From positions 1 through 40,840 of the forward strand of contig JAUYTX010000093.1 in the NCBI GenBank assembly GCA_030695025.1: a stretch of DNA of 40,840 nucleotides, given 5' to 3'. The DNA comes from Bacteroidales bacterium. GTDB taxonomy: Bacteria; Bacteroidota; Bacteroidia; Bacteroidales; UBA932. Below the pieces are notes generated by a model, which ran no database searches, had not been told where the DNA came from, and was given only the letters and a program-made list of their open reading frames with translations. The position numbers and the translations under genes are program-made. Shown in pieces: positions 2,134 to 39,442 of this stretch (positions within the stretch are counted from its first letter, which is position 1; each line of letters begins with the position of its first letter).

Positions 2134-5100
2134 ATGAAAAAAATTAAACTAATCTTAACAGGTCTGTTGCTTGTTTTGGCTGTTGGCCTAGCCAGCGCTC
2201 AGAATATTCAAGTAACAGGAACTGTTACTGATGCCAGCACAGGGGAGCCTGTTATGTTTGCATCAGTTATGCTGAAGGGGACATCTGTCGGAGTTGCAAC
2301 TGATCAGATGGGTAAATTCACCATCAACGCTCCCGCTAACGGAATTCTGATTTTCAGCTTTATCGGTTATACTACCCTGGAGCTTCCTATTAACGGACGC
2401 GCAATTCTGGACGTTAAAATGAGTCCGGATGCTGTTTATCTGGAGGATGTTCTTGTGGTTGCATACCAGACTGTCAGAAGATCTTCATTTACAGGATCTG
2501 CTGCAACTGTTAAACAAGATCAAATTGAGAGAATTCTGTCAACAAACGTGACAAAATCTCTCGCCGGAGCCGTTCCTGGAGTACAAGTAGTAGGTGGTTC
2601 AGGTCAGCCTGGCTCATCAGCCAATATTCGTATCCGCGGTATCGGTTCGGTGAATGCATCAAGCGCACCACTTTATGTTGTTGACGGAGCTGCATATGAT
2701 GGAGACATTAACGCCATACCAACAGATGATATCGAATCAATCAGCGTATTGAAAGATGCCGCTGCTGCTGCTCTTTACGGAGCCCGCGGAGCAAATGGTG
2801 TTATTATGGTAACAACAAAAAAAGGTAGAGTTGGAAAGGCAACCGTTAATGCAAAAATTAACATCGGAACCAGTTCCCGCGCTATTGAAGAGTACGAAAG
2901 AGTAGATTCAAAACAATACTATGAGTTGATGTGGGAAGGATGGAGAAATGCCCGCGTTATCGCAGGAGGTATGACTCCGGAAGCTGCTGCTGCACAGGCA
3001 AGCGGTACCACTACTAACGGTATTGTTGCAAAAATGGGAGGTTATAATCCTTTTAATGTTGCAAATGGTCTTGTTATTGGTCTTGACGGCAAACTTAATC
3101 CTGCTGCACAACTATTATATCAGGATGACTGGATTGAAGCACTTTCACAAAAAGGGATCAGACAGGACTATAATGTTAATGTAAGCGGAGGAGTTGACCA
3201 GACAACATACTATCTCTCTTTAGGTTATATTAACGAAAAAGGACACTTAAAGTGGTCAAGTTTTGATCGTTTTACAGGTCGTATTGGTCTTTCTACCAGA
3301 GTTAACAAATGGTTTAAAATTGATGGAAACATTTCGGGAACATCAGCTAATACAGCAAATCTGCTAGCTGAGGGAACCTATACATCTAACCCTTTCTATT
3401 ACGGAAGGATGATGGGTCCAGTTTATCCGATATATCAAAGAAATGATGATGGCTCTATCAAAAAGATGAATGACGGATCTCCTGCCTATGATATGGGAGG
3501 TGGAAACACCGTTTATACTTGGGCAGGTCACACAAGACCTTATGCTCCTAACTCAAACCTTATGGTTACTCTGCCACTAGATGACAGATCAAACATGAGA
3601 AATCAGCTCTCTGCTCGTATGTCTGCAGAATTTACCATTCTGAAAGATTTGACATTGAGAGTTTCAGGAAGTACAGACATGACCAACACGTTATTCACTA
3701 CATATCAGAACAACAAGTTTGGTGATGCAGGTGTAACATTAACAGGAGCCGGTGTTTCAGGTAGATCTACCAAACAATACACAGGTTCACAGTCATACAC
3801 TTTCAACCAGGTACTTACCTATAATAAATCTTTCGGTTCACATAATTTGAATTTCCTAGTAGGTCATGAAAATTATCAGTGGGACAGAAGAATTGTATCA
3901 GCAACCAGAACCAATTTCAAGATCGATTCTAAAGAGCTCGTTGCCGGATCAGTAGCAGAAGGATCTACATCATATTCTGATATTTACACTTTGGAAGGTT
4001 ATTTTGCAAATGCTAGTTATGCATTCTCAAATAAGTATTTCCTTTCAGGTTCATATCGTTATGACGGTTCATCAAGATTTTCATCTGACTCTCGCTGGGG
4101 AGGCTTCTGGTCAGTAGGTGCTTCATGGAGAGCTAATGTAGAGCCATTTATGTCTACACTACACTGGCTTGATGATCTTCGCGTTAAAGCATCTTATGGT
4201 GAGCAAGGTAATGACGATATCGGAAACTACTACGGCTACCAAAGTTTGTTTACAATCTCAGGTTACAATAACGGTAACTTTAACGGAGCATTCTATAGCC
4301 AACTTGCTAACAACGAACTAAAATGGGAGAAAAATGGCAACTTTAATGTTGGAGTTGATTTTTCACTATTCACAAGAGTAAGAGGTCAGGTAGAGTACTT
4401 TATTAGAAAATCAGACAACCTACTATTCCAGGTGCCACTTCCTCAATCTGCCGGTCTCCATATAAAATGGGATAACATTGGTAGTATGAAGAATAATGGT
4501 ATTGAATTCCAGCTTGCTGCTGATATTATTAAGACAAAGGACTTCGTATGGACTTTTGACATAAACGGTACTCATTATAAAAACGAGATTACTAAGATGC
4601 CTGTAGGTCCGGACGGAAAATTCCAGGAAATAATTTCAGGAACAAAGAAACTTTCTGTTGGTCACTCAATATTTGATTTCTGGCTAAGAGAGTGGGCAGG
4701 CGTTGATCAGGCTGATGGTAGTGCTTTGTATTATAAAGATATCAAAGACTCTGAAGGTAAGGTTACCGGCAGAGAGACAACCAAAGATCAGAACGCAGGA
4801 TCATACTATTATTTAGGTTCTTCAATTCCTGAGCTATATGGAGGTATTACCAATACCGTTAAGTTTTATGGATTTGATCTTGCTGTATTCCTGATTTATC
4901 AACTAGGAGGTAAAATGTATGACACCAACTATGCTGCTTTGATGCACCCAGGAACTTTCGGTTCACACATGCACGTTGATTTGTTAAACAGATGGACATC
5001 AGCAAATACGAACACAAATATTCCTAGACTTCAGAATGCATATGCTGCACCAACAGCAGCATCAAGCCGTTGGTTAACTTCTGCAAGTTTCTTGTCGCTT

Positions 5101-6836: not shown

Positions 6837-8717
6837 ATGAAAAAAATAAAATATATTTTGTATGCTACGTTTGCAATTTTACTTATGTATGGTTGTGATC
6901 CAGAACCTCCGGTTGAATTAGAACTTTCTGTAAAAGAAGTTTTTATTTCAAATATTGACGGAAACGGAACAATTACTGTAAGCGCAAATTCAAACTGGAC
7001 GGCAACACTTTCTTCTACCTGGTGCTCAATTTCACCAACCAGCGGAAATGGGAACGGAGAGATTACAATAACTGCTTCTGATAATTTCAACGATGAAAAC
7101 AGGGGTGTAGTGCTTTATGTAACAAGCAAAGGAGTTAAAAAAAGCGCAACAATAAGACAAGATTTTTCTAAGTTGGAAATTGACAAAAATCAGATTCTTT
7201 TTTCTAAACTGGGCTCAACAATAAATGTTTCTGTTGTTTCTAACACAAATTGGCAAATAGAGATTCAAACCGGTACTAATTGGATATCGACTAACACTTA
7301 TAGTGGTAAGGGTAATGCAGAAATAGCATTTACGGCAACTCCAAATGAAGGCAAGCAACGAGAATCTAAAATATTTTTTAAATATGCCAATGGACAAAGG
7401 GAACTAGTTGTAATTCAGGAGAGGAGTATTAACACTTCTCCTAATTCTCCAATAATGAAATCCCCGGTCAACAATCTTAATGATGCAAACAGACTTCCTA
7501 CCTTCAGGTGGGGTGCTTCAAAAGATCCGGATGGAGATATTGTTACATATCGTATTGAATATTCCTTAAGTCAGACCAACTGGAACAATTCTATTCATGT
7601 GTCTGATACAGTGTACAACCTTCCTGCCTACCTCGATGAAAATAAAAAATACTACTGGAGAGTTGTTGCAATTGATTCATTCGGAGGAGAGGGCATATCT
7701 CAGGTTTATACGTTTACTACCGGAACTAAAAAAAGCTATTTTGACGGTCAGTATAAAGTTGCTCAAACTTATACTAAAGGTTCAGGGCCTTCGGAGATTT
7801 TGTTTATCGGAGACGGATACGTATCGGAGGACTACGAGGAGGGAGGCATTTTTGACAGAGACATGAATAATGGTATTGAATACTTTTTTGAAATAGAACC
7901 GTATAAAAGTTACAGAGAGTATTTTAATATTTATAAACAAGCTGGGTATTCCAGAGACAGGGGCGTAAAACAGACAGATAAAGGTATTTTTAAAAACACA
8001 AAATTTGGAGTTGACTTTTTAGGAGGATCTTCACTTTCTGCTGACACAGATGAGGTATTCAGATATGCCAAAATGATTTCCGGGGTTGATGATATTAAGC
8101 TTAGAGACATGCTTATTATTCTTGTTGTAAACCAGGACAGGTATGCCGGAACATGCTGGATCTGGACAGATGGTAAAGCGATTGCAATATGTCCTGTCAG
8201 TACTTCAACAGCAGCCGGTACCCATTTCAGGAACTTAATTTATCATGAAGCTGGAGGGCATGGTTTTGGAAGACTAGCGGATGAATATACAACCGCAGCA
8301 AATGCAGGAAAAACCATAAATGACGAATATAAATCTAAGTACAACACATTCAAGAATGCAGGTTTCTATCCAAATATTGATCTTACCGGGGATTTAACAG
8401 CTGTAAAATGGAAGCATTTTATCAATCTATCCGGATACAGCAGAGTGGGAGCAGTAGAGGGTGGATTTTACTTCCCATTAGGGGTATGGAGGCCTGAGCA
8501 AACAAGTTGTATGATGTATAATGAACCTTACTACAACGCACCTTCAAGAGAAAAAATGGTTCAACGCATTTTGTCTGCTGCGCAGGAACAATACTCACTG
8601 GAGATATTCAGGCAAAAAGATATTCAGAAAGCTCCATCTCAATCTGTGCTCTTGCAAACCAAGAGCATAAACCCACTAACATTTGTGCCACTTGCTCCAC
8701 CAGTAATGATGAAATGA
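6837..8717 (+). CDS. BACON-domain lipoprotein with M64 metallopeptidase domain (copy 1)
   Basis: This 626-residue protein starts with a lipoprotein signal peptide (LLMYGC, Cys20). Two BACON-type domains follow at roughly 29-103 (SNWTATLSSTWCSISPTSG) and 110-198 (NTNWQIEIQTGTNWIS), then a fibronectin-III-like domain at about 203-296 (YYWRVVAIDSFGG). The last half is an M64 (IgA-peptidase family) domain, beginning with SEILFIGDGYVSEDYEEGG and containing HEAGGHGFGRLADEY at about 470-484. BACON domains often bind glycans or mucin-like ligands, and M64 enzymes are zinc peptidases, so a surface protease acting on a glycoprotein is a reasonable inference. The metal motif reads H-E-x-x-x-H, one residue longer than the usual HExxH. 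The stop is TGA, followed two codons later by TAA. A diverged paralogue lies 43 bp downstream. Confidence 0.85.
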   Translation: MKKIKYILYATFAILLMYGCDPEPPVELELSVKEVFISNIDGNGTITVSANSNWTATLSSTWCSISPTSGNGNGEITITASDNFNDENRGVVLYVTSKGVKKSATIRQDFSKLEIDKNQILFSKLGSTINVSVVSNTNWQIEIQTGTNWISTNTYSGKGNAEIAFTATPNEGKQRESKIFFKYANGQRELVVIQERSINTSPNSPIMKSPVNNLNDANRLPTFRWGASKDPDGDIVTYRIEYSLSQTNWNNSIHVSDTVYNLPAYLDENKKYYWRVVAIDSFGGEGISQVYTFTTGTKKSYFDGQYKVAQTYTKGSGPSEILFIGDGYVSEDYEEGGIFDRDMNNGIEYFFEIEPYKSYREYFNIYKQAGYSRDRGVKQTDKGIFKNTKFGVDFLGGSSLSADTDEVFRYAKMISGVDDIKLRDMLIILVVNQDRYAGTCWIWTDGKAIAICPVSTSTAAGTHFRNLIYHEAGGHGFGRLADEYTTAANAGKTINDEYKSKYNTFKNAGFYPNIDLTGDLTAVKWKHFINLSGYSRVGAVEGGFYFPLGVWRPEQTSCMMYNEPYYNAPSREKMVQRILSAAQEQYSLEIFRQKDIQKAPSQSVLLQTKSINPLTFVPLAPPVMMK

Positions 8718-8760
8718 ACATAAAAAAACGTATCTTTGATACGCTTAAAACTAACCATTT

Positions 8761-10662
8761 ATGTTAAAATCAATACTTTTCAATAAAATCAATTTTTATA
8801 AAATATTTTTAATAATTACTGTTTTAATTGCCTCTGGATGTAAAAAAGAACCAGCTCCTGAATTAACTTTAACGTCAACAAATTTGTCTGTTCTTAATAA
8901 AGCTGGAAGTGAGAAAATTGCATTTACTTGTAACGGAAACTGGACAGTAGCCTCATCTGAAACATGGTTTACTGTTGCTCCGTCATTCGGTAATGGTAAT
9001 GGTGAGATCACAGTCACTTTTTCAGAAAATTCTGCAACAGATGAACGAAATGGGAATATAATCCTTACCACTGGCACTCTAACCAAAACTGTTAGAATTT
9101 CACAGAGCAGAACACTGTTAGATATTGATACTCCCACAATCTCTTTTACTAAAGAGAGCTCTCTTGCCAAGATTAGTATTGTCTCCAACACTAACTGGCA
9201 GATAATTGTTCCTCCCGGCACAACCTGGATTAATATATCTCCTCTGAGCGGATCGCAGAATATGGATGTAAACATATCTGTATTGGCAAATGATGGAGCA
9301 TTAAGAACAGTAGACTTAGCTATTAAATATGCTCAAACTGAGAAAATTGTGTCGGTAAGCCAGCAAAGAGGTAAAAACACTGCACCTGAAGCGCCTAAAT
9401 TAAAATTACCGGCAAACAATAATTTAGATGCTAACCGACTACCAACTTTCCGATGGGCAGCATCAAAAGATCCGGATAATGACGTTGTTGTATACAATTT
9501 GGAATATTCAAAGGGCGGTACAAACTGGACTATTTCTCAATCAATACAGGATACTGTGCTTAATATCTCTGCATATCTTGATGCAAACTCAACATATAGT
9601 TGGAGAGTTCGGGCAACTGATAGTATGGGAGATTTTGCCTATTCTCAAACATACACTTTTAAAACAGGAGTTAAAAAGAGCTATTTTGACGGAGAGTTTA
9701 AGATCGCTCAGGAGAACACCGCAGGTGCACTTCCTTCTGAAATTCTTTTTATTGGAGATGGTTACATTTCTGAAGATTTTGAGGAGGGTGGTAAATTTGA
9801 CAAGGAGGTTGATGAGGGTATTAATTATTTATTCGACACAGAGCCGTATAGATCTTATAAACAATACTTTAAGGTATACAAACAGGCCGGATATTCGAGA
9901 GATCAGGGTGTTACACAGACAGATAAAAATATTACCAAAAACACAAAATACAGTGTGTCTTTCAAAGGTGGCTCTTCAATGGAATCCAACAGTGATGCGG
10001 TTTTTTCAAGCGCTAAGCTGATTCCGGGAGTAGATGATATAAAGTTGAGGGAGCTTCTCATTGTTTTACTTGTAAATGAAAACAGATATGCCGGTACTTG
10101 CTGGACTTGGTCAGACGGAAAAACAATTGCCATAACTCCTGTCAGCAGGAATTCAAACCCAAGTTACCATTATAAAGGTGTGTTGCTGCATGAAGCAGGA
10201 GGCCATGGATTCGGGCGTTTGGCCGATGAATATGTCAGTTCGACAAATGCCGGAAAGACCATTACTGCAGAAGACACACAAAAACTTAAGGATAGATTTA
10301 ATAAAAATCATGCAGCTAACGTCGACCTTACATCAGATACTACTCTAGTCAGATGGAAACATTTTCTCCGAAGAGCAGGATATGACAGGGTAGGAGTTTA
10401 CGAGGGGGCATACTACTATCCATTTGGAGTGTGGAGGCCAGAATTGACAAGTTGTATGATTAACAACATTGCATACTATAATGCAGCATCAAGAGAGGCA
10501 ATTGTCAAAAGAGTACTGGCCAAGGCGGGTGAACCATATTCACTGAATAGTTTTCTTTCCAAAGATATTCTGAAAGAGCCGTCACAGGCAGCAGTGCTTC
10601 AAACAAAGAGTTTCAACCCATTAACTTTTGTACCATTGGCACCACCGGTGTACGTGAAGTAA
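8761..10662 (+). CDS. BACON-domain lipoprotein with M64 metallopeptidase domain (copy 2)
   Basis: This 633-residue protein has the same architecture as the gene 43 bp upstream. It has a lipoprotein signal (LIASGC, Cys27), two BACON-type domains at about 36-115 and 120-205, a fibronectin-like domain at about 210-303, and an M64 domain to the end. The zinc motif is again HEAGGHGFGRLADEY, with the first His at residue 477. Both copies share a near-identical C-terminal tail (NPLTFVPLAPPV), while their first 30 residues differ completely, which points to an old tandem duplication. Residues KKE right after the lipidated Cys resemble the charged surface-export signals of Bacteroidota lipoproteins. 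The catalytic half is more alike between copies than the BACON half, so they may cut similar substrates but bind different ligands; this is inference. Confidence 0.85.
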   Translation: MLKSILFNKINFYKIFLIITVLIASGCKKEPAPELTLTSTNLSVLNKAGSEKIAFTCNGNWTVASSETWFTVAPSFGNGNGEITVTFSENSATDERNGNIILTTGTLTKTVRISQSRTLLDIDTPTISFTKESSLAKISIVSNTNWQIIVPPGTTWINISPLSGSQNMDVNISVLANDGALRTVDLAIKYAQTEKIVSVSQQRGKNTAPEAPKLKLPANNNLDANRLPTFRWAASKDPDNDVVVYNLEYSKGGTNWTISQSIQDTVLNISAYLDANSTYSWRVRATDSMGDFAYSQTYTFKTGVKKSYFDGEFKIAQENTAGALPSEILFIGDGYISEDFEEGGKFDKEVDEGINYLFDTEPYRSYKQYFKVYKQAGYSRDQGVTQTDKNITKNTKYSVSFKGGSSMESNSDAVFSSAKLIPGVDDIKLRELLIVLLVNENRYAGTCWTWSDGKTIAITPVSRNSNPSYHYKGVLLHEAGGHGFGRLADEYVSSTNAGKTITAEDTQKLKDRFNKNHAANVDLTSDTTLVRWKHFLRRAGYDRVGVYEGAYYYPFGVWRPELTSCMINNIAYYNAASREAIVKRVLAKAGEPYSLNSFLSKDILKEPSQAAVLQTKSFNPLTFVPLAPPVYVK

Positions 10663-10803
10663 TTCTCCGCGCCAGTTTTGGACAACTGTTTGTTTATGAG
10701 TGTTTTGCAAATGAGACTTTTTTTGAAATCTAAGTCATTTTTGCCATAGTCTGTTTTGTAAGTGTCTGTTGGATAAGTGTATGTCCAAAAGTGGCGCGGA
10801 GAA
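10663..10803. repeat. 141-bp MITE-like element with 22-bp terminal inverted repeats
   Basis: The left end at 10663-10684 begins TTCTCCGCGCCAGTTTTGG. The right end at 10782-10803 is its reverse complement with one mismatch in 22. Inside, a second interrupted stem pairs GCAAA 10707-10711 with TTTGC 10740-10744, and GACTT 10715-10719 with AAGTC 10732-10736. There is no ORF. The element starts immediately after the TAA of the second M64 gene. No convincing target-site duplication is visible; the flanks are GTAA and AAAA. It could be a miniature transposon, a REP/ERIC-like structural repeat, or a large 3' RNA hairpin. Confidence 0.65.
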
Positions 10804-10804
10804 A

Positions 10805-10832
10805 AAAAGCCTGCTTATAGAAGCAGGCTTTT
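10805..10832. terminator. Bidirectional terminator between the M64 gene and rpoC
   Basis: A perfect 12-bp stem pairs AAAAGCCTGCTT at 10805-10816 with AAGCAGGCTTTT at 10821-10832, with loop ATAG. A-runs on one side and T-runs on the other make it work on both strands. It sits between convergent genes and ends both transcripts. Confidence 0.9.
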
Positions 10833-10870
10833 TTAAATATTTAACTGTTTATATTACAAACAGATTACGA

Positions 10871-13800
10871 TTACTCCTCTTTTTTGCTCTTGAAAACTCT
10901 TTGATAATCATCTTTTGATGTTACAATTATCTTTTCGAACTCTCTTGTACCGGTTCCGGCAGGGATAAGGTGTCCGCAGATCACATTCTCTTTAAGACCC
11001 TCAAGAGTGTCAGTTTTGCCGAATGTAGCTGCTTCGCTAAGTACCTTGGTTGTCTCCTGGAACGATGCGGCCGACATAAAGCTGTTGGTACGCAATGCTG
11101 CTCTGGTTATACCCTGAAGTATCTGGTTTGAAGTGGCAGGAACGGCATCACGTGCCTCAACTGTCTTAAGATCTCTTCTCTTAAGAGTAGAGTTCTCTTC
11201 ACGCAGTCTTCTTACCGTGATAATCATACCTGCTTTAAGTTCTAGTGAATCACCAGCATCAAGAATAACTTTTTTATCATAAATGTTATCATTCTCCAGC
11301 ATAAATTCCCATCTGTCAACAAGTTGTTCCGGAAGGAATCTGGTGTCGCCCGGATCTACGATCTCAAGCTTACGCATCATCTGTCTTACAATAATCTCAA
11401 AGTGCTTGTCATTGATCTTCACACCCTGCATTCTGTAAACCTCCTGAACCTCGTTTACGATGTACTCCTGAACCTTTGTCGGGCCTTGAATAGCGAGTAT
11501 ATCGGTAGGTGAAATAGCTCCTTCTGATAGCGCCATACCTGCTCTTATGTAGTCATTCTCCTGAACAAGTATCTGTTTTGAAAGTGGAACAAGATAGCGT
11601 TTCTCTTCACCGGTCTTAGATTTGATGATAATCTCGCGATTTCCCCTTTTGATTTTACCCATTAAAACCTCACCGTTAATTTCTGAAACAACAGCAGGGT
11701 TTGAAGGATTTCTCGCTTCAAAAAGTTCGGTTACCCTTGGAAGACCTCCCGTGATGTCACCGGATTTACCGATTGCTCTTGGGATTTTTACCAGGATATC
11801 ACCCGATTTAACCTTTTTACCGTTTTCAACCATGATGTGGGCTCCAACCGGCAGGTTATATTGCCTTAGTTCAAGCTTGTTTTCATCAAGAATACGGATA
11901 GTAGGGTTCTTTGATTTATCACGTGATTCAATAACAACCTTCTCTTTGTGAAGTGAATACTCGTCAGCTGCCTCTTCGCGGAATGTAACACCTTCGATAA
12001 GGTTGTCAAATACAATCTTACCACCGGTTTCAGCAATTGTGATAGCGTTGTAAGCATCCCATTCGCAAATCTTGTCACCTTTTTTAACAGTATCGTTATT
12101 TTTGAAATAGAGAGTTGCGCCGTAAGGAACGTTGTGAGTAGAAAGTACGATACCGGTATTGATATCTACTATTTTCATCTCAGCTGTACGTCCAATTACA
12201 ATTTCCGATTTCTCTCCATTCTCAAACTCTTTGAGTAGTGTTCTTAGCTCTTCAAACTCTATCTTACCATCATATCTTGCAACGATTTCATTTTCAGAAG
12301 CAATGTTTGATGCTGTACCTCCGACGTGAAATGTACGCAGAGTAAGCTGAGTACCTGGTTCACCGATAGACTGAGCAGCAATTACACCAACAACCTCTCC
12401 AATTTCAACCATTCTGCCGTTAGCAAGGTTTCTTCCGTAGCATTTGCTGCAGACACCCTTCTTGGATTCACAGGTTAAAACCGAACGAATCTCAACATGT
12501 TCAATTGGCAATGATTCAATAAGAGTTGCAATCTCTTCGGTAATCTCCTCACCTGTATCGATGATTTTCTCTCCGGTAAGTGGATTGTAAATATCGTGAA
12601 CGGTAGTTCTACCAAGAATTCTGTCATACAGTGATTCAACGATTTCGTCTTTATTCTTGATTGCTGTTGCAACAAGACCTCTTAATGTTCCGCAATCGTC
12701 TTCGTTTATGATAACGTCATGCGACACATCCACAAGCCTTCTTGTAAGGTAACCGGCATCTGCTGTTTTAAGAGCGGTGTCGGCCAGACCCTTTCTTGCA
12801 CCGTGTGTAGAGATAAAGTACTCAAGAACTGATAGTCCCTCTTTAAAGTTTGAAAGAATCGGGTTCTCGATAATCTCAGCTGAACTTGCTCCTGATTTCT
12901 GAGGTTTTGCCATCAGACCCCTCATTCCTGAGAGCTGACGAATCTGTTCCTTTGAACCCCTTGCACCAGAGTGAAGCATCATGTAAACAGGATTGAAACC
13001 ATCTCTGTCTGTTGCTATCCTCTTCTCAACAATATTTGTAAGTTTAGAGTTGGTTGATGTCCAAATGTCAATAATTTGGTTATACCTCTCGTTGTTGGTT
13101 ATAAGACCATTATTGTATGAGAACATAATATTCTCAACCTGCTTGTAACCATCTTCGATAAGGCTTACCTTCTCTTCCGGAATAATCACATCTTCAAGGT
13201 TGAACGAAAGTCCGCCCTTGTATGCCATCTGGAATCCAATCTCTTTGATATCATCTAGGAATTTGGCAGTTTTGGCAACTCCTGCAACCTTGAGAACGTT
13301 ACCGATAATGTCTCTTAAAGACTTCTTGGTAAGGATCTCATTGATGTAACCAACTTCCGGAGGAACAACCTGATTAAACAGAATTCTACCTACAGTAGTC
13401 TTTACTAGTGAGAAGCCCTTTGAGTGATCTGTAAAGTCATTTGGCAATCTTACTTCAATTTCTGCATGAAGAGCAGCTCTTCCCTCATTGTATCCAATAA
13501 TTACCTCTTCAGGACCATAGAATTTAATTCCATGACCTTTAGCCTGGTGACGAGCTTTAGTAATATAATAAAGTCCAAGTACCATGTCCTGAGACGGAAC
13601 GGTAATAGGAGCTCCGTTGGCCGGGTTAAGAATGTTGTGAGAACCCAGCATTAAAAGCTGTGCTTCAAGAATTGCAGCGTTTCCTAACGGAAGGTGAACA
13701 GCCATCTGGTCACCGTCAAAGTCAGCGTTGAATGCTGTACATGAGAGCGGGTGCAGCTGGATAGCTTTGCCTTCGATAAGTTTTGGCTGGAATGCCTGAA

Positions 13801-15136
13801 TACCAAGACGGTGAAGGGTAGGGGCACGGTTTAGCATAACCGGGTGTCCCTTCATAACATTTTCGAGAATATCCCAAATAACAGGATCTTTTCTGTCAAC
13901 TATTTTTTTAGCAGACTTAACAGTCTTCACTATTCCTCTTTCAATAAGCTTGCGGATAACAAACGGCTTGAAGAGTTCTGCTGCCATATCTTTAGGAATA
14001 CCACATTCGTGCATCTTAAGCTCAGGACCAACGACAATCACCGAACGGGCAGAGTAGTCAACCCTCTTACCCAAAAGGTTTTGACGGAAACGACCCTGTT
14101 TTCCTTTAAGACTGTCTGATAGTGACTTAAGTGTGCGGTTTGCCTCGGTTTTAACGGCGTTTGACTTTCTTGAGTTATCAAACAGAGAGTCAACTGCCTC
14201 TTGTAGCATACGCTTCTCATTTCTTAGAATCACCTCAGGAGCCTTAATTTCAATAAGTCTCTTTAGACGGTTGTTTCTAATAATTACCCTGCGGTACAAG
14301 TCGTTAAGGTCTGATGTTGCAAACCTTCCACCATCAAGAGGAACCAAAGGGCGCAACTCCGGTGGAATAACCGGAACTACCTTAAGGATCATCCATTCAG
14401 GTTTATTAATCGCTTTAGATTCACGGAATGCCTCAACAACACTTAGTCTTTTGAGAGCCTCTGCCTTTCTCTGCTGAGAGGTTTCGGTCTCTGTCTTGTG
14501 TCTGAGGTCGTATGAAAGCTGGTCAAGATCAATCCTGCTCAGCATTTTATAAATCGCTTCGGCACCCATTCCGGCAATAAACTTATTAGGATCATTGTCG
14601 TCAAGCATTTGGTTTTCTCTTGGGAGAGAATCCAGAATATTTAAATATTCATCCTCTGTCAGGAAGTCGTGCTCTTTTACTCCGTCTACGGCTTTAGAGC
14701 CGGCCTGAATAACAATATATCTTTCATAATATACAATTGCTTCAAGTTTTTTAGATGGAATACCTAACAGATAACCTATCTTGTTTGGTGTGCTGCGGAA
14801 ATACCAGATATGAGCCACAGGTACCGTGAGTGAGATGTGTCCCATTCTCTCTCTTCTTACCTTTTTCTCTGTCACCTCTACGCCGCAACGGTCGCATATA
14901 ATGCCTCTGTAGCGGATTCTTTTATACTTACCGCAATGACATTCATAATCCTTGTAAGGACCAAAGATCCTTTCGCAGAAGAGTCCGTCTCTTTCCGGTT
15001 TGTATGTTCTGTAGTTAACAGTTTCTGGCTTTAGTACTTCGCCGGAAGATCTCTCGAGGATCTCTTCGGGTGAGGCCAGACTTATGGTAATCTGATTGAA
15101 ATTACTTTTTACCTTTATCTCTTTCTTTAAAGACAT
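10871..15136 (-). CDS. rpoC: RNA polymerase subunit beta'
   Basis: The largest catalytic subunit of RNA polymerase, about 1421 residues and normal for Bacteroidota. The N-terminal zinc-binding site ([20 protein letters not shown]), the active-site Mg-binding motif NADFDGDQM, and the second zinc cluster ([13 protein letters not shown]) are all present. I chose the ATG at 15136 ([13 protein letters not shown]), because it aligns with the usual N-terminus of the family. An upstream in-frame ATG at 15151 would add only five residues. It lies 24-39 bp after rpoB in the same operon and ends at the bidirectional hairpin. No disruption is seen in this gene. Confidence 0.97.
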
Positions 15137-15175
15137 ATTATTCTGTTTCAAAGATTTGCAAATACTATTATCAAA

Positions 15176-17311
15176 TTACTCCAGGTTTATGCTGAGTCCA
15201 AGACCACGAAGTTCGTGAAGCAACACATTAAGAGATTCTGGGATGCCGGGCTGCGGCATTGGATCTCCTTTAACGATTGCTTCGTAGGCACGGGATCTTC
15301 CAACTACATCATCTGATTTAATCGTTAGAATCTCCTGAAGAATATTGGCAGCACCAAATGCCTCAAGTGCCCAAACCTCCATCTCACCAAATCTCTGTCC
15401 TCCAAACTGAGCTTTACCTCCCAGAGGCTGTTGGGTTATAAGTGAGTAAGGTCCTATAGAACGGGCGTGCATCTTGTCATCAACCATGTGACCGAGTTTT
15501 AGCATATATATTATGCCAACTGTAGCCGGTTGATCAAACTGGTCACCAGTTCCGCCGTCACGAAGATATGTTTTACCATATTTTGGAATTCCGGCGTTAT
15601 CGGTATACTGACAAATTTCATCAAGGGTGGCTCCGTCAAAGATTGGAGTACTAAAGCGCTGTCCAAGCTCTTTACCTGCCCATCCGAGAACTGTTTCATA
15701 AATCTGACCAAGGTTCATACGAGATGGCACACCAAGAGGATTCAATACAATATCTACTATTGAACCATCTTCAAGGAATGGCATATCCTCGTCTCTTACA
15801 ACTTTGGCAACAATACCTTTGTTACCGTGACGACCCGCCATTTTGTCTCCAACTCTAATCTTACGCTTCTTGGCAATGTAAACCTTAGCAAGCTGCATTA
15901 TGCCAGTTGGTAGTTCATCACCGATTGTCAGATTATATTTTATTCTCTTAAGTTCTGCATCGAACTCCTTATGAGCAATTAGATAATTGTTAATAAGCAG
16001 TTTAATCAGGTTGTTAGTGCTCTTGTCTGTTGTCCATTTGGTAGGATTGATGTTTTCATAATCAATCTTATCCAGAACTTCATATTTAAAATCAATTCCT
16101 TTTTCAACGATAACAACACCATAAAGGTCAGATACTCCCTGAGAAACTTTATTTGTCAAAAGTGCAAAGAGTCTTTCCAGGAAGTTAAGTCTAAGCTGAC
16201 TTGCTTTTCTGGCAAAATTCTCTTCGGCATGTTGAATCTGGTTTTTTGAAACAGATTTACCTTTCTTGGAGTTCTCCTTGGCAACTCTCGAGAACAATCT
16301 TTTATCAATGATTGTTCCTCTTAGTGAAGGAGATGCTTTAAGCGAGGCATCTTTTACATCGCCTGCCTTATCACCGAAGATTGCTCTTAAAAGCTTCTCT
16401 TCAGGAGAAGGGTCGCTCTCTCCTTTAGGAGTGATTTTACCAATCAGAATGTCACCTGGTTCGATATTGGCGCCAATTCTTATGATACCATTCTCATCGA
16501 GATCTTTGGTGGCCTCTTCACTTACGTTAGGAATATCAGCAGTTAGCTCTTCCATTCCTCTCTTGGTGTCGCGAACCTCCATAGTGTATTCATCAACGTG
16601 AATTGTTGTAAATACATCTTCTCTCAGGAGTCTCTCAGAAATAACAATGGCATCCTCAAAGTTATAGCCTTTCCAAGGCATAAATGCAACCTTAAGGTTC
16701 CTCCCCAATGCCAGTTCACCCTTCTCTGTGCCATAACCTTCAGTAAGAATCTTACCTTCGGTAACCTTTTCACCCTTTCTTACGATTGGGTTAAGCGTGA
16801 TTGATGTATTCTGGTTGGTTTTTCTGTATAGTGGTAATTTATAGACAGTAATTTCAGGATCAAAGCTTACAAAACGCTCATTTTCGGTCATCTCATATTT
16901 AATATGAATCTCCCTGGCGTCAACATAAACAACTTCACCCTTACCTCTTGCAGTTATCTGTGTTCTTGAATCATGAACTACAGGGCCTTCAAGACCGGTA
17001 CCCACAATCGGAGCCTCAGGTCTGACAAGCGGAACTGCCTGGCGCATCATATTTGAACCCATCAAAGCACGGTTAGCATCATCATGCTCAAGGAACGGAA
17101 TCAGCGAAGCCGCGATAGAAGCAATTTGATTAGGGGCAACATCCACAAGGTGGACGTCTTCCTTGCCTACTACCGGATAGTCTGCTTCGAAACGACACTT
17201 GATCCTTTCGTCAGTCATCATACCGTTTTCGTCAATATGAACGTTTGCCTGAGCAACCATCTTCTCCTCTTCCTCCTCTGCACTCATGTAAACGATGCCC
17301 TTAAGGGTCAT
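15176..17311 (-). CDS. rpoB: RpoB C-terminal part (711 codons, after the TGA)
   Basis: The first ATG after the TGA ([17 protein letters not shown]) lies 15 codons downstream, but conserved RpoB residues already resume directly after the TGA. This piece holds the catalytic lysine region and the flap ([34 protein letters not shown]), the [12 protein letters not shown] motif, and the C-terminal clamp ([20 protein letters not shown]). Reinitiation here to give a two-piece beta subunit is possible in principle, but nothing in the sequence supports a dedicated start site. Confidence 0.85.
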
Positions 17312-17356
17312 ATCAACTTTACCCTCTTCTACCTTTCTGTAAGGAGTTTCGATAAA

Positions 17357-18994
17357 TCAAAGTTCATTAATACTTGCATCTACGCAAAGTGATGAAATCA
17401 GACCGATGTTTGGACCCTCAGGTGTCTCAATTGGGCATAGACGGCCATAGTGAGTGTAGTGAACGTCACGTACCTCAAAACCTGCTCTGTCTCGTGAAAG
17501 ACCTCCGGGACCCAGTGCCGAAAGACGACGTTTGTGAGTCATCTCTGCCAAAGGATTTGTCTGATCCATGAATTGAGAAAGCTGGCTTGTTCCGAAAAAT
17601 GAATTAATTACCGAAGATAGAGTCTTGGCATTAATCAGGTCAATTGGGGTAAATACCTCATTATCCCTTACATTCATTCTTTCACGAATGGTTCTTGCCA
17701 TTCTTGACAATCCAACACTGAATTGATTTGCAAGCTGCTCTCCAACTGTTCTGATACGACGATTGCTAAGGTGGTCAATATCGTCAACGATTGCCTTAGA
17801 GTTTATAAGCTGAATAAGATAACGAATGATTTCGATAATATCCTGCTTTGTAAGAACTCTGGTTTCGTCAGCAATATTTAGATTAAGCTTGTGATTAAGC
17901 CTGTATCTTCCAACCTCTCCAAGGTCATATCTCTTGTCTGAGAAGAAGAGTTTGTCAATCACATCCCTTGCTGTTGCCTCATCTGGTGGTTCAGAGTTAC
18001 GAAGCTGGCGGTAAGTGTAAAAGACAGCCTCTTTTTCGGAGTTACACTGGTCTTTTTGTAATGTATTATGTATGATAGCGAAGTCATTGAAGTTTGCATC
18101 TTCTTTGTGAACAAGTATCGTACTTACCTCTGATTCCAGAATAAGGTCAATATGATGTTCTTCGATGATGGTCTCCCTGTCAATAACTATTTCGTTTCTT
18201 TCAATGTACACAACCTCTCCTGTGTCCTCATCAACGAAATCTTCATTCCATGTTTTGAGAACTCTGGCGGCAAGTTTATTGCCAACACATTTTTTGAGGC
18301 TGCTTTTGTTGACCTTGATCTCATTTGCAAGGCCGAATATATCAAGGATGTCCTTATCACTCTCATATCCAATTGCTCTTAGGAGAGTGGTAACAGGTAA
18401 CTTTTTCTTTCTGTCGATGTATGCATACATTACATTGTTAATGTCTGTTGCAAACTCGATCCAGGACCCTTTGAAAGGGATTATTCTGGCAGAATATAGT
18501 TTTGTTCCGTTTGCGTGCAGACTCTGGCCGAAAAATACTCCCGGAGAGCGGTGCAACTGAGAAACAACAATTCTTTCAGAACCGTTTATTACAAATGTAC
18601 CTCTGGGTGTCATATAAGGAATTGTTCCCAGATATACATCCTGTATAACTGTGTCAAAATCCTCATGTTCAGGGTCTGTGCAATAAAGTTTTAATTTTGC
18701 TTTGAGAGGAACGCTATATGTTAAACCTCTGTCAAGACACTCCTCGATAGTGTAACGAGGTGGGTCGATAAAGTAGTCTATGAATTCAAGGACAAAATTA
18801 TTACGGGTGTCCGTAATTGGGAATATTTCCTGGAAAACCTTGTAAAGTCCTTCGTTTTCACGATTTTCTGGTGTCGTCTCAAGCTGGAAGAAGTCTTTGA
18901 AAGACTTCAGCTGTACCTCTAAAAAATCCGGGTAATCAAGAAGGGATTTAGAAGTAGCGAATGTAATTCGCTGATTTATTGTTTTTTGCGACAT
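17357..18994 (-). CDS. rpoB: RpoB N-terminal part (545 codons, up to the TGA)
   Basis: It starts at [16 protein letters not shown], the normal RpoB start, and carries the protrusion and lobe regions plus the complete rifampicin-binding region at about 470-498 ([20 protein letters not shown], then RLSALGPGG). The drug-contact positions have wild-type residues: Asp477, His487 and Ser492. The frame ends at the TGA just after the [14 protein letters not shown] motif. On its own this piece lacks the downstream half of the catalytic core and could not form a normal beta subunit. Confidence 0.9.
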
Positions 18995-19032
18995 TGTATT
19001 CGGGTTAGTTGAAAATATATTAAAATAACGAC

Positions 19033-19067
19033 AAAAAGGTTTAGAGCCTTTTAATGACTCTAAACCT
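19033..19067 (-). terminator. Attenuator-like hairpin between rplL and rpoB
   Basis: On the minus strand a perfect 10-bp stem, AGGTTTAGAG with CTCTAAACCT (19058-19067 and 19037-19046), encloses an 11-nt loop. It is followed by TTTTT (counting one stem base), then GTCG. It lies in the 104-bp rplL-rpoB gap, where partial termination is known in other bacteria to lower rpoBC relative to ribosomal-protein mRNA. Partial termination here is inference. Confidence 0.7.
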
Positions 19068-19098
19068 GATGGTGTTCCCCGATCAACGGGTTGTGGAG

Positions 19099-19473
19099 TT
19101 ATTTAATTTCAACTTCTCCGCCCGCCTCTTCTATTTGCGATTTAACTTGTTCTGCTTCTGCTTTTGAAACTTTTTCCTTGATAGCTTTAGGAGCAGCGTC
19201 TACTAGATCTTTAGCCTCTTTAAGACCAAGACCTGTAAGCTCTTTAACAACTTTTACTATCTGGAGTTTAGCTTGTCCGGCTGATATAAGAACTACATCA
19301 AACTGAGTTTGCTCAACTTCTGCAGCTGCACCGGCAGCGGCAGGAGCAGCAACTGCTACAGCAGCAGCAGCTGGTTCGATTCCATATTCGTCTTTAAGAA
19401 TTTTTGCTAATTCTTGTACCTCTTTAACAGACAGGTTTACTAATTCTTCTGCAAATTTTTTGATATCTGCCAT
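19099..19473 (-). CDS. rplL: Ribosomal protein bL12 (L7/L12)
   Basis: This 124-residue stalk protein recruits translation GTPases. It has the N-terminal dimerization helix ([20 protein letters not shown]), an Ala-rich hinge at about 35-52, and the C-terminal domain ending [20 protein letters not shown] and beyond. Length and motifs are normal. It lies 33 bp after rplJ and before the attenuator-like hairpin. Confidence 0.97.
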
Positions 19474-19506
19474 GATTATATTTGTTTTTAAAATGATTAA
19501 TTTCTG

Positions 19507-20031
19507 TTACTCTTTTTCTGAAAGGGTCTTTACAATACCTGCAATTTTACCACCGCCACTTGATACAAGTGCAGAGATAACATTTTGTGCAGGAGATTGA
19601 AGTAGACCAATTATGTCACCGATGAGTTCATCACGAGACTTAATTGAAATCAGTGCTTCAAGTTGGTTCTCACCAACATATGCGCACTCTTGTACCAGCG
19701 CTCCCTTAAGAACAGGTTTCCCATGCTCTTTACCGAACTCTTTAATAAGTTTGGCAGGGATGTTCACTACTTCTGTGAACATAACTGCTGTAGGGCCTTC
19801 CAGTATTGGAAACAGAGCTTCTGAGTCTGTTAGTGCTTTCTTCTCAAGAGCCTTACGTAGTAAAGTATTCTTTACAACAACAAGTTTAATCTCTTTCTCG
19901 AAGCAGGCACGACGCAGCTTTGCAGTTTTCTCGGCATTCAGCCCTGATATATCTGCAATGTAGAAATTTGGAGTTTTCTCCAACTGTGCTGCCAGACTTT
20001 CAATAATTTGTGTTTTTTCGTCTTTTTTCAT
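19507..20031 (-). CDS. rplJ: Ribosomal protein uL10
   Basis: This 174-residue protein forms the base of the L12 stalk and binds 23S rRNA. The N-terminal RNA-binding part (IADISGLNAEKTAKLRRAC; VVVKNTLLRKALEKK) and a C-terminal helix for L12 dimers are recognisable. It follows rplA by 15 bp. No long L10-type autoregulatory leader fits into that gap, so any L10 feedback would need a site elsewhere. Confidence 0.96.
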   Translation of the reverse strand: MKKDEKTQIIESLAAQLEKTPNFYIADISGLNAEKTAKLRRACFEKEIKLVVVKNTLLRKALEKKALTDSEALFPILEGPTAVMFTEVVNIPAKLIKEFGKEHGKPVLKGALVQECAYVGENQLEALISIKSRDELIGDIIGLLQSPAQNVISALVSSGGGKIAGIVKTLSEKE

Positions 20032-23876: not shown

Positions 23877-25274
23877 TTACACAAAAACCAATAACCCTAT
23901 TCTGTAAGCAAAAAATCCTGCAATCCAGGCAACTGCAATAGTACTGAATATTGAGATCAGAGCCCATTTCCAGGTCCCGGTCTCCTTCTTTATTGTAAAT
24001 GCAGTAGCTACACAAGGCATGTACAATAAAGCAAAAATCATGAAAGAGAGTGCATTTGCCTTATTAAAGACCTTCTCTTCCTTTATCCTGGCCATTAATG
24101 ATGTGTTAATCTGCTCATCCGATACAGAATCTTCCTCTGCCTGATAAACCACACCAAGTGTGCTAATAATAAATTCCTTAGCCGTAATACCGGTAACAAG
24201 ACTTACGCTCATCTTCCAGTCAAACCCAAGAGGTTTGAGTGCAGGCTCGACAACTCTTCCAAAATGTTCCAGATATGATACCCTTCCAGCATCAGGATTG
24301 GCTTTATCTTTTAACGGGAAATAGTCCAGTGCCCATACAATTATTACTGCCAGGAGCACTACCGTACCAATCTTCTTTACATATTGCCAGGCTGCATCCC
24401 ACATATTTTCAACAGAGTAGACAAACGACGGTCTCCTGTATCTTGGAAGCGGAATAGAAAAATCTTTTATTCCAAAGTTGAAGAAGATTTTTCTGAACAA
24501 TATGGCCATTCCTATACCAACCAAAATTCCTCCGAAATATAGCAGACTAAGTGCTAAAACCTGATTGTCCGGGAAGAAAATTCCGGAGAATAGTAAAAAC
24601 GTGGGGATTCTTGCACTGCAGGGAATGTAGGGAATCATTAGCATTGTAAGAATTCTGTCCGATTTTCTCTTTATTGTTCTGGTAGCCATTATTGCCGGAA
24701 CATTACACCCAAATCCCATAAGCAGAGGAATAAATGAACTGCCGTGCAGTCCGATCCTGTGCATGTACCTGTCCATTATTGTAGCGGCTCTTGATATATA
24801 TTCAGTCTCCTGTAATAATGAAAGGAAAAAGAATAGTATAAGAATATTGGGAAGAAAGGCCAGAACGCTTCCCACACCCATAATAACACCCTGACTCAGA
24901 AAATCGGCAAACCAACCCTGTGTCATGTTATCCCGGATAAACATGGCTCCAAGGTTCATAAGATGCTCAATACCGGCCTGAGGATATGCTCCAAGTCTGA
25001 ATGTAAAGAAGAATATGAGCCAGATTATTAGAATAAACGCCAAAAGACCCCAAACCGGGTGAGTAAGATAGGAGTCAAGTCTGGAGGTCTGTTCCTGACT
25101 ATATTCTCTTAAATCTTTTAGTTTATTGTGGTGATGGTGTCCTTTGTGACCGCCTTTATGATCTCCTTTGTGCTCTCCTCTTCTGTGGTGACCCTTTCCA
25201 GGATTCTCCTTCTCACTTTTATATGCAAAGTGGTCAAAGACCACTTGGGGTTTTTTATTTTTTTCGTGCGACAT
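23877..25274 (-). CDS. feoB: FeoB-type ferrous iron transporter membrane core, without GTPase domain
   Basis: This 465-residue protein matches the membrane part of FeoB: the first core helix after LTHPVWGLLAF (from about residue 70), the conserved GFGCNVPAIMATRTI and MIPYIPCSARIP motifs, ITAKEFIISTLGVVY, and YMPCVATAFTIKKE. The N-terminal G-protein domain of normal FeoB (about 270 residues, with GNPNxGKT-like motifs) is absent. In its place is a charged His-rich stretch at 29-49 (GEHKGDHKGGHKGHHHH). No room is left upstream for the missing domain, because the start overlaps the last 20 bp of the intact dxs gene. The protein probably moves Fe(II) or another divalent metal across the inner membrane. 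A partner GTPase may be encoded elsewhere, or the His-rich tail may serve metal capture; both are inference. Confidence 0.85.
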   Translation of the reverse strand: MSHEKNKKPQVVFDHFAYKSEKENPGKGHHRRGEHKGDHKGGHKGHHHHNKLKDLREYSQEQTSRLDSYLTHPVWGLLAFILIIWLIFFFTFRLGAYPQAGIEHLMNLGAMFIRDNMTQGWFADFLSQGVIMGVGSVLAFLPNILILFFFLSLLQETEYISRAATIMDRYMHRIGLHGSSFIPLLMGFGCNVPAIMATRTIKRKSDRILTMLMIPYIPCSARIPTFLLFSGIFFPDNQVLALSLLYFGGILVGIGMAILFRKIFFNFGIKDFSIPLPRYRRPSFVYSVENMWDAAWQYVKKIGTVVLLAVIIVWALDYFPLKDKANPDAGRVSYLEHFGRVVEPALKPLGFDWKMSVSLVTGITAKEFIISTLGVVYQAEEDSVSDEQINTSLMARIKEEKVFNKANALSFMIFALLYMPCVATAFTIKKETGTWKWALISIFSTIAVAWIAGFFAYRIGLLVFV

Positions 25275-27123
25275 TAATTATAGTATTATAAATGCCGTTT
25301 ACATCATATCCGCATTCGCCGATAAGTTCTTCAACGGTACCCTGTTCAATAAATCTGTCCGGAACTCCCAGTCCAATAACCTTAACATTAAGGGAATTAG
25401 TGGCAACATATTCCGATACGGCAGAGTACAGGCCTCCTGAAACAGAGCCATCCTCTACAGTAATGATTGTTTTGCACCCGGCAGCCGCACAATTGATTGC
25501 GTCTATATCTAAAGGTTTTATAAACCGCATATTGTAATGCATAATGTTTATACCACTCTCCTTTGCCTTTTCGGCTGCAATAATTACGCTATTGCCAACA
25601 GGTCCTATTGATAAAACTGCAATGTCACTACCATCCTGCAAAAGCTGAGCTTTGCCGGGCTCAATTTTTTTAAAATTACCCTTCCACTCCAGCCCCTCTC
25701 CGTAACCTCTTGGATATCTTATTGCTGTTGCACCATATTCAGGAAACTGTACTGAGTATAATATGTCTTTAAGTTCAACCTCATTCAGAGGTGAAAAAAT
25801 TGTCAGATTTGGTACGCATCTCAGGTATGCCAAATCAAAAACCCCATGGTGTGTTGCCCCATCTTCACCTACAATTCCTGCCCTGTCGAGGCAAAATATC
25901 ACCTTAAGTTTTTGAGTAGCAACATCATGTATTACATTGTCATATGCTCTTTGCATGAAACTGGAGTAGATATTGCAGTAGGGTAGAAGACCCTGGGTGG
26001 CCAGACCGGCCGAAAAAGTTACTGCATGCTGCTCTGCTATTCCAACATCAAAGGCTCTGTTTGGCATCTCCTTCATAAGAATGTTCATTGAACATCCGGT
26101 AGGCATTGCAGGAGTAACCCCTACAATTTTAACGTTTTCCCTTGCTAGTGAAAGGAGGGTCTCTCCAAAAACATCCTGGTACCTTGATCTTTTTTCATCA
26201 GGAGATGATATTCTTTTTCCGGTATTTTTATCGAAAGTTCCCGGCGCATGCCATACAATCTGGTCATTTTCAGCCGGTATATACCCCTTGCCCTTTTTTG
26301 TAATAATATGGAGAAGCTTGGGCCCGGGAATATCTTTAATATGCCCTAATGTCTTAATGAGTTTGGGCAGATCATTACCGTCAACAACGCCAAAATAGCG
26401 GAAGCCCAGGGATTCAAAGAGTGAGCCTGAACGGAAAAATGCAACTTTGGTGCTGAATGTAAATCTTTGGAAAAGCGTTCTCAGTTTCTTTGAACCGATT
26501 ATATTCCAGATTCTGTTTTTGGTCTCGTTGTAGATTTGAGATGTGGTAATTTTCAACAAATGGTTGTGAAGCGCTCCCACATTGGGGTCAATAGATATCT
26601 GATTATCGTTAAGGATAACAAGAATATCGGACTGTTTCGCACCTGCGTTGTTAAGCCCTTCAAAAGCAAGGCCACCAGTTAGAGCACCGTCACCAATTAT
26701 TGCAACTACTTTATTTTTGTTGTTGTTAATCTCAGAGGCTACTACCATTCCCAATGCGGCAGATATTGAAGTAGATGAGTGGCCTACGCCAAATGCATCG
26801 TACTTACTTTCGCTCATTTTCGGGAAACCACTGAGACCTTTATATTTTCTATTGTTAACGAATTGATCTCTTCTCCCTGTTAAAATTTTGTGGGCGTAGG
26901 CCTGATGGCCTACATCCCACACAATTTTATCTTTAGGAGTGTTGTATAAGTAATGGAGTGCAACACTAAGTTCAACTGTCCCCAGACTGGCACCAATATG
27001 ACCCGGATTTTGAGAACAGCAGGATATTATATGTTCCCGTATTTCGGCACATAATTTCTGCAGCTCCTCTTTTCCCAGCCCCTTTATATCATCGGGTGAA
27101 TTGATCTTACTTAATAGCTCCAT
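25255..27123 (-). CDS. dxs: 1-deoxy-D-xylulose-5-phosphate synthase
   Basis: This 622-residue protein catalyses the first step of the MEP isoprenoid pathway, joining pyruvate and glyceraldehyde-3-phosphate with TPP. The TPP-binding GDGALTGGLAFEGLNNAG motif is at about 149-166. The transketolase-type central segment (DRAGIVGEDGATHHGVFDL) and C-terminal domain are complete, so the length equals that of E. coli Dxs. It begins 32 bp after the MFS gene and overlaps the next gene by 20 bp, suggesting coupled translation. Confidence 0.97.
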   Translation of the reverse strand: MELLSKINSPDDIKGLGKEELQKLCAEIREHIISCCSQNPGHIGASLGTVELSVALHYLYNTPKDKIVWDVGHQAYAHKILTGRRDQFVNNRKYKGLSGFPKMSESKYDAFGVGHSSTSISAALGMVVASEINNNKNKVVAIIGDGALTGGLAFEGLNNAGAKQSDILVILNDNQISIDPNVGALHNHLLKITTSQIYNETKNRIWNIIGSKKLRTLFQRFTFSTKVAFFRSGSLFESLGFRYFGVVDGNDLPKLIKTLGHIKDIPGPKLLHIITKKGKGYIPAENDQIVWHAPGTFDKNTGKRISSPDEKRSRYQDVFGETLLSLARENVKIVGVTPAMPTGCSMNILMKEMPNRAFDVGIAEQHAVTFSAGLATQGLLPYCNIYSSFMQRAYDNVIHDVATQKLKVIFCLDRAGIVGEDGATHHGVFDLAYLRCVPNLTIFSPLNEVELKDILYSVQFPEYGATAIRYPRGYGEGLEWKGNFKKIEPGKAQLLQDGSDIAVLSIGPVGNSVIIAAEKAKESGINIMHYNMRFIKPLDIDAINCAAAGCKTIITVEDGSVSGGLYSAVSEYVATNSLNVKVIGLGVPDRFIEQGTVEELIGECGYDVNGIYNTIINVARKK

Positions 27124-38527: not shown

Positions 38528-39442
38528 CTAATCCTGGATGTACCCGAATTGTCTGAGTTTTCTGTCGTCTTCGCGCCAATCGGGATTTACTTTCACAAAT
38601 ATCTGTAAAAATACCCTTTTTTCAAAAAAGGTTTCCATATCTTTTCTGGCCAGCGTTCCAATTCTTTTAAGTGCTTCACCACCTTTGCCAATGATAATTC
38701 CCTTCTGGGAATCTCTTGTGACATAGATGATTGCCTCGACATGATATATATCTTCTGACTCTTTAAATGCCTCTATAACAACTTCTGTGCAGTATGGCAC
38801 CTCCTTGGAATAGTGCAATAGAATCTTTTCGCGGATTATCTCACTCGCAAAAAACCGGAGGTTTCTGTCTGTAAACTGATTTTTATCATACCAAGCCTCA
38901 TTTTCTGGTATCAGCTCCAAAATCCTGTTAAAAATCGCATCCAGATTGAATTTCTCCTGTGCAGAAATTGGAAATATCTCGGCATTTGGCAGAATTTCGC
39001 GCCATGCATTGTATATCTCTTCAAGCTCTGCCTGATTACTCAAGTCTATTTTATTGATTACAAGAAGAACCGGGGTTGATATATCTTTAAGGCGGTTGAT
39101 GAAGTCAAGGTTTTTTTTACTCTTCTCAACTACATCGGTAACATACAATATAACATCAGCGTCTGAAAATGCAGAGCGTACAAAACTCATCATACTCTCT
39201 TGCAATTTGTAGTTAGGCCGTAAAATACCCGGAGTATCGGAATATACAATCTGATAATCCTCTCCGTTTACAATGCCCATTATACGGTGTCTGGTTGTTT
39301 GAGCTTTGGCTGTAACAATTGACAATCTTTCGCCAACCAGAGCATTCATAAGCGTAGATTTGCCAACATTTGGGTTTCCCACTATGTTGACAAATCCTGA
39401 CTTATGATTTTTTTTAGTTTCCGGAGAACTATTCATAGGCAC
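38528..39442 (-). CDS. era: GTPase Era
   Basis: This 304-residue GTPase acts in 30S ribosome maturation. It has G1 GNPNVGKST (Lys28), G3 DTPG, G4 NKID, and a C-terminal KH domain with GKGGEALKRIGTLARKDME, which binds the 3' end of 16S rRNA. The start at 39442 overlaps the upstream gene by 14 bp; an in-frame ATG at 39436 is an alternative. The overlap indicates coupled translation with the pseudouridine synthase. Confidence 0.96.
   Translation of the reverse strand: MPMNSSPETKKNHKSGFVNIVGNPNVGKSTLMNALVGERLSIVTAKAQTTRHRIMGIVNGEDYQIVYSDTPGILRPNYKLQESMMSFVRSAFSDADVILYVTDVVEKSKKNLDFINRLKDISTPVLLVINKIDLSNQAELEEIYNAWREILPNAEIFPISAQEKFNLDAIFNRILELIPENEAWYDKNQFTDRNLRFFASEIIREKILLHYSKEVPYCTEVVIEAFKESEDIYHVEAIIYVTRDSQKGIIIGKGGEALKRIGTLARKDMETFFEKRVFLQIFVKVNPDWREDDRKLRQFGYIQD

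Follow-up and report, generated by a model that had tools for sequence, protein, structure and literature searches.

Why the gene for the beta subunit of RNA polymerase should carry a stop codon in the middle of its frame in a Bacteroidales bacterium is not evident. The gene lies on the minus strand of the window, by which we mean the whole stretch of 40,840 nucleotides that was analysed, in an assembly of 2,246,045 bases and 104 contigs that is 90.95% complete and 0.8% contaminated. Such an interruption could reflect a changed meaning of UGA, a beta subunit made in two pieces, a dead copy of the gene, or simply an error in the draft.

The rpoB frame and its relatives

Translation of 15176-18994 yields a single frame of 1,273 codons, counting the terminal stop, in which the sole internal stop is codon 546, flanked by INEL and FIETPYRKV. 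A preliminary description of the locus had likewise reported a frame uninterrupted save for this TGA. The features that bear on its interpretation are these:

15176-18994, minus strand: frame of rpoB, which encodes the RNA polymerase beta subunit; 1,272 codons and a terminal stop, interrupted once by TGA
17357-17359, minus strand: in-frame TGA, codon 546, a glycine position in 109 of 109 related loci
17357-17389, minus strand: likely error island, codons 536-546, with seven private differences in 33 nt and codons 539, 541 and 546 replaced
17378-17380, minus strand: codon 539, Asp here, and Tyr, Phe or His in 108 related loci
17372-17374, minus strand: codon 541, Ser here, and Lys, Arg or His in 108 related loci
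17309-17311, minus strand: internal ATG, codon 562, proposed as a reinitiation site; Met also in L003 and L004, whose genes are uninterrupted

The minus-strand neighbourhood (rpoC, rpoB, rplL, rplJ, rplA, rplK, nusG and tuf, the names other than rpoB being assigned from translations) reads as the usual one. Pfam places RpoB domains 1-3 ahead of the stop and the external 1 domain, domain 6 and domain 7 beyond it, and a search of the Protein Data Bank matches the region of the stop to solved beta subunits. No second copy of rpoB was found in the genome, a draft of 90.95% completeness, where PF00562 and the whole RpoB protein each match once, in agreement with the earlier statement that no other copy is visible.

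Other parts of the window have features of their own. A pair of neighbouring, similar genes of the M64 peptidase type occupies 6837-10662 on the plus strand, the first with M64 and BACON domains by Pfam and the second classed from its translation; the closest relative, G001, has about 79% DNA identity to parts of 6837-10662, as against 95% over 10802-19999. On the minus strand, 23877-25274 encodes a membrane protein that resembles FeoB and has a His-rich N-terminus; in the protein Pfam found the Gate and FeoB_C domains and, at E 0.001, no G-protein domain, and the start of its gene overlaps the end of a dxs-like frame (25255-27123) by 20 nt. Finally, the translation of 39429-40840 (minus strand) suggests a pseudouridine synthase-like gene, and at its N-terminus ERKPYDRERKPFDG-type repeats follow one another over a long distance and past the end of the window; the ERKPYDRERKPFDG-type repeat also matches contig C12 of G001 (L174).

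The interruption of rpoB has no counterpart among the matches listed for relatives. When rpoB was compared with 60 genomes, its own included, 56 had a match, giving 58 match rows; the row from the genome itself has the one TGA, and the 57 rows from other genomes are free of internal stops. Rows from three genomes (G003, G012 and G043) are strongly partial, ended by contig edges. A wider search found rpoB in 277 of the 295 genomes of the order, and 'none' is again the entry for internal stops in all other genomes among the matches listed. By name, the 80 loci matched by rpoB belong to Bacteroidales and other Bacteroidota, the best, at 90%, coming from a Bacteroidia bacterium. A glycine had been expected at codon 546, and glycine it is in 109 of 109 related loci, although these are drawn from two overlapping collections and are not all independent genomes. 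At least 25 of the 277 genomes of the order have two or three rpoB matches, and rpoB may be duplicated elsewhere in the order. Among the 60 genomes, G006, which has a contamination of 7%, shows two rows on separate contigs (query 41-1272 and 1-526), and G013 shows one full row and one weak match of 58 residues.

Radical changes at codons 536-546

The preliminary description held that a single change to TGA explains the interruption fully. This does not stand, since codons 539 and 541, seven and five codons upstream of the stop, are abnormal as well. Neither Asp at codon 539 nor Ser at codon 541 occurs in the 108 related loci that have one alignment spanning codons 525-560; the 109-row set includes Asp at codon 539 in one row and Gln at codon 541 in one row, states that are missing from the 108-row set, from which one row was dropped. 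In comparison with L003, which together with L004 represents the two closest, same-genus relatives (RpoB protein identity about 99%), 184 codons differ, mostly silently. Only 11 of the 1,273 change meaning, stop included, and three of these are codons 539, 541 and 546, so that three radical changes fall inside eight codons.

The same concentration is seen at the level of single bases. Outside the patch rpoB differs from L003 at 4.8% and from L004 at 6.2% of bases, and within codons 536-546 the rates are 24% and 27%, respectively. The seven private sites in the 33 nt of these codons form the densest group in rpoB, where the next peaks hold four. Permutation gives P = 0.00055 for the clustering of seven private sites in 33 nt, P = 0.0015 for three of six private replacements within eight codons, and P = 0.012 for three of the 11 replacements relative to L003 within eight codons, values that are descriptive and not formal tests, the patch having been picked after the TGA was known. 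When 30 bases of the patch were searched for with up to two mismatches, they were found in the genome itself (1 of 25) and in none of the other 24 genomes of the genus.

The cluster is visible against close relatives and not when only columns with 99% or more invariance in the related loci are counted. By that strict yardstick no cluster is flagged in rpoB, which departs at two such columns (codons 546 and 797), the median among the loci being one and the maximum 12. The cluster is missed since relatives are themselves variable at codons 539 and 541 (Tyr/Phe/His and Lys/Arg/His, respectively), which lie outside the columns considered. Across the window, denser private patches do occur in the fast-diverging M64 region, with up to 12 private differences in 30 nt, and some of the seven private differences in rpoB leave the amino acid unchanged and may reflect ordinary divergence.

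The types of substitution also differ between the patch and the rest of the gene. Swaps between A and C or between G and T make up five of the eight differences from L003 inside the patch and 24 of the 180 outside it (Fisher P = 0.0025), and five of nine as opposed to 35 of 234 when L004 is used (Fisher P = 0.0073), the class of the swap at codon 541 depending on which relative is chosen as reference. By one account, A/C and G/T swaps are by far the commonest Illumina substitutions (PMC4719071). For this draft, which may or may not come from Illumina reads, the enrichment is to be taken as supportive only.

The most appealing scenario, and to judge from the consensus a highly probable one, is that the TGA at codon 546 is a local sequencing or assembly error and not biology. 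A stretch at about 17357-17389 of a normal, functional rpoB would have been miscalled or misassembled, perhaps at a bad join or where the poor ends of a single read, or of a few, supplied the coverage, and this would have left three codons wrong, among them the stop. Since codons 539, 541 and 546 are altered together, one local event would account for all three, and error is preferred because it does not need a probably lethal lesion, seen once, in an essential gene. The patch resembles the substitution errors of short-read drafts in being isolated, clustered, confined to one assembly, enriched in A/C and G/T swaps and productive of a false stop in an essential gene. It is unlike them in that the rest of the sampled draft is clean, and the rpoB case is judged from the consensus. 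That the draft is otherwise clean where sampled, so that errors are not widespread, is indeed a counterpoint to the error reading. A literature search on premature stops in metagenome-assembled genomes returned nothing directly relevant among the matches listed. Of the options named by the preliminary description, the first, a base-calling error, is thereby the best supported, and nonsense suppression and translation in two fragments are disfavoured because they leave codons 539 and 541 unexplained.

A possible non-functional allele or divided subunit

The sequence may be real and the allele non-functional, if the consensus took in either a second, degraded copy or a strain that was minor or dying out. 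Drafts from mixed populations can blend strains, and with about 9% of this draft incomplete an intact copy of rpoB could be missing. However, the genome has a single rpoB match, and the rest of the gene is normally constrained, third codon positions holding 67 of its 74 private sites. A non-functional allele should decay throughout its length, whereas the damage is confined to one patch. We thus consider a real but dead rpoB improbable.

Perhaps, then, RpoB is made in two fragments, with translation of the second beginning anew at the ATG at 17309-17311. This ATG, where the preliminary description had considered reinitiation, is present. That a beta subunit can be split and still function is known in principle. 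As in split beta genes, two long open pieces meet here close to a domain boundary: residue 542 is the last of Pfam domain 3, and the second fragment would start in the external 1 domain, 11 positions along its model. Unlike in those genes, the second piece would lack conserved residues here, since a restart at codon 562 drops codons 546-561 and with them FIETPYR, a motif present in 34 of the 35 closest rows listed. Moreover, the ATG is an internal Met shared with relatives that have uninterrupted genes, an internal stop is absent from all 57 match rows of other genomes, and codons 539 and 541 would go unexplained. A beta subunit divided at this point is therefore very hard to credit. An extension of this scenario, in which all three changes are real and linked, codons 539 and 541 having been altered to fit the break in a two-piece beta subunit at the domain boundary, we regard as very far-fetched.

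The meaning of UGA in this genome

An alternative of another kind is that UGA is decoded as an amino acid, whether by a suppressor tRNA or under an altered code. UGA stands for glycine in Gracilibacteria and Absconditabacteria (PMC8629427). Such a code would fit the rpoB case in form, with TGA at a conserved glycine (109 of 109 related loci). By comparison with what is described there, the present genome is unlike those of the two groups in having release factor 2, no UCA tRNA found, TGA as a normal terminator and one single case.

Indeed, UGA works as a stop in this genome, on four counts. Release factor 2 is encoded: prfB (L142, at C52:68419-69432 of the genome itself) was found above the curated cut-off, and in it a GGGGAGG run precedes a CTTTGA programmed-frameshift site at which the frame changes, in keeping with the known autoregulation of release factor 2 through its own UGA. 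The anticodon, read for all 34 tRNA genes found, is UCA in none of them (Rfam model, 150 of 158 candidates scored, in a draft 90.95% complete). TGA also ends genes where their relatives end. Among the 123 gene matches that reach the C-terminus of the relative's protein, a stop follows immediately in 114, and it is TGA in 10. Within the window, the first M64 gene stops with the TGA at 8715-8717, and the SpoU gene (31896-31102) ends in TGA at the end of the relative's protein, two cases that the preliminary description had already cited. Lastly, the TGA of rpoB stands alone: no further stop lies inside coding sequence in the 49,707 residues of 133 gene matches, which come from 10 of the 14 stretches of the genome that were tested (the other four being without a retained match).

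Two flagged stops, in L151 (about 16555-17370) and in L154 (about 10009-11346), were dismissed when the frames were read, both lying upstream of a likely start codon, where the frame of the relative happens to be open. In matches that are 95% or more identical to G001 (33,175 residues), the same scan flagged a sole further group of three radical changes in eight residues, in L152 (about 3080-4315), where no stop is made.

The presence of release factor 2 with its frameshift site, the lack of a UCA anticodon among the 34 tRNAs found, the termination of 10 of the 123 gene matches by TGA and the absence of a second internal TGA in 49,707 residues thus all argue against decoding of UGA, and suppression would in any case leave codons 539 and 541 wrong. 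An amino-acid meaning of UGA in this genome seems to us very improbable, and on the same grounds the earlier judgement that genome-wide recoding is unlikely holds.

The cluster of changes, its position at the stop, its absence from relatives and the normal use of stops elsewhere in the genome are directly visible, and a local error would accommodate them. In the living cell rpoB is very probably ordinary and full-length, with glycine at codon 546, and the TGA is a matter for caution and not a discovery. When a premature stop appears in an essential gene of a draft, neighbouring radical changes should be checked first, a test for which relatives suffice and which, applied to rpoB, separates error from recoding.
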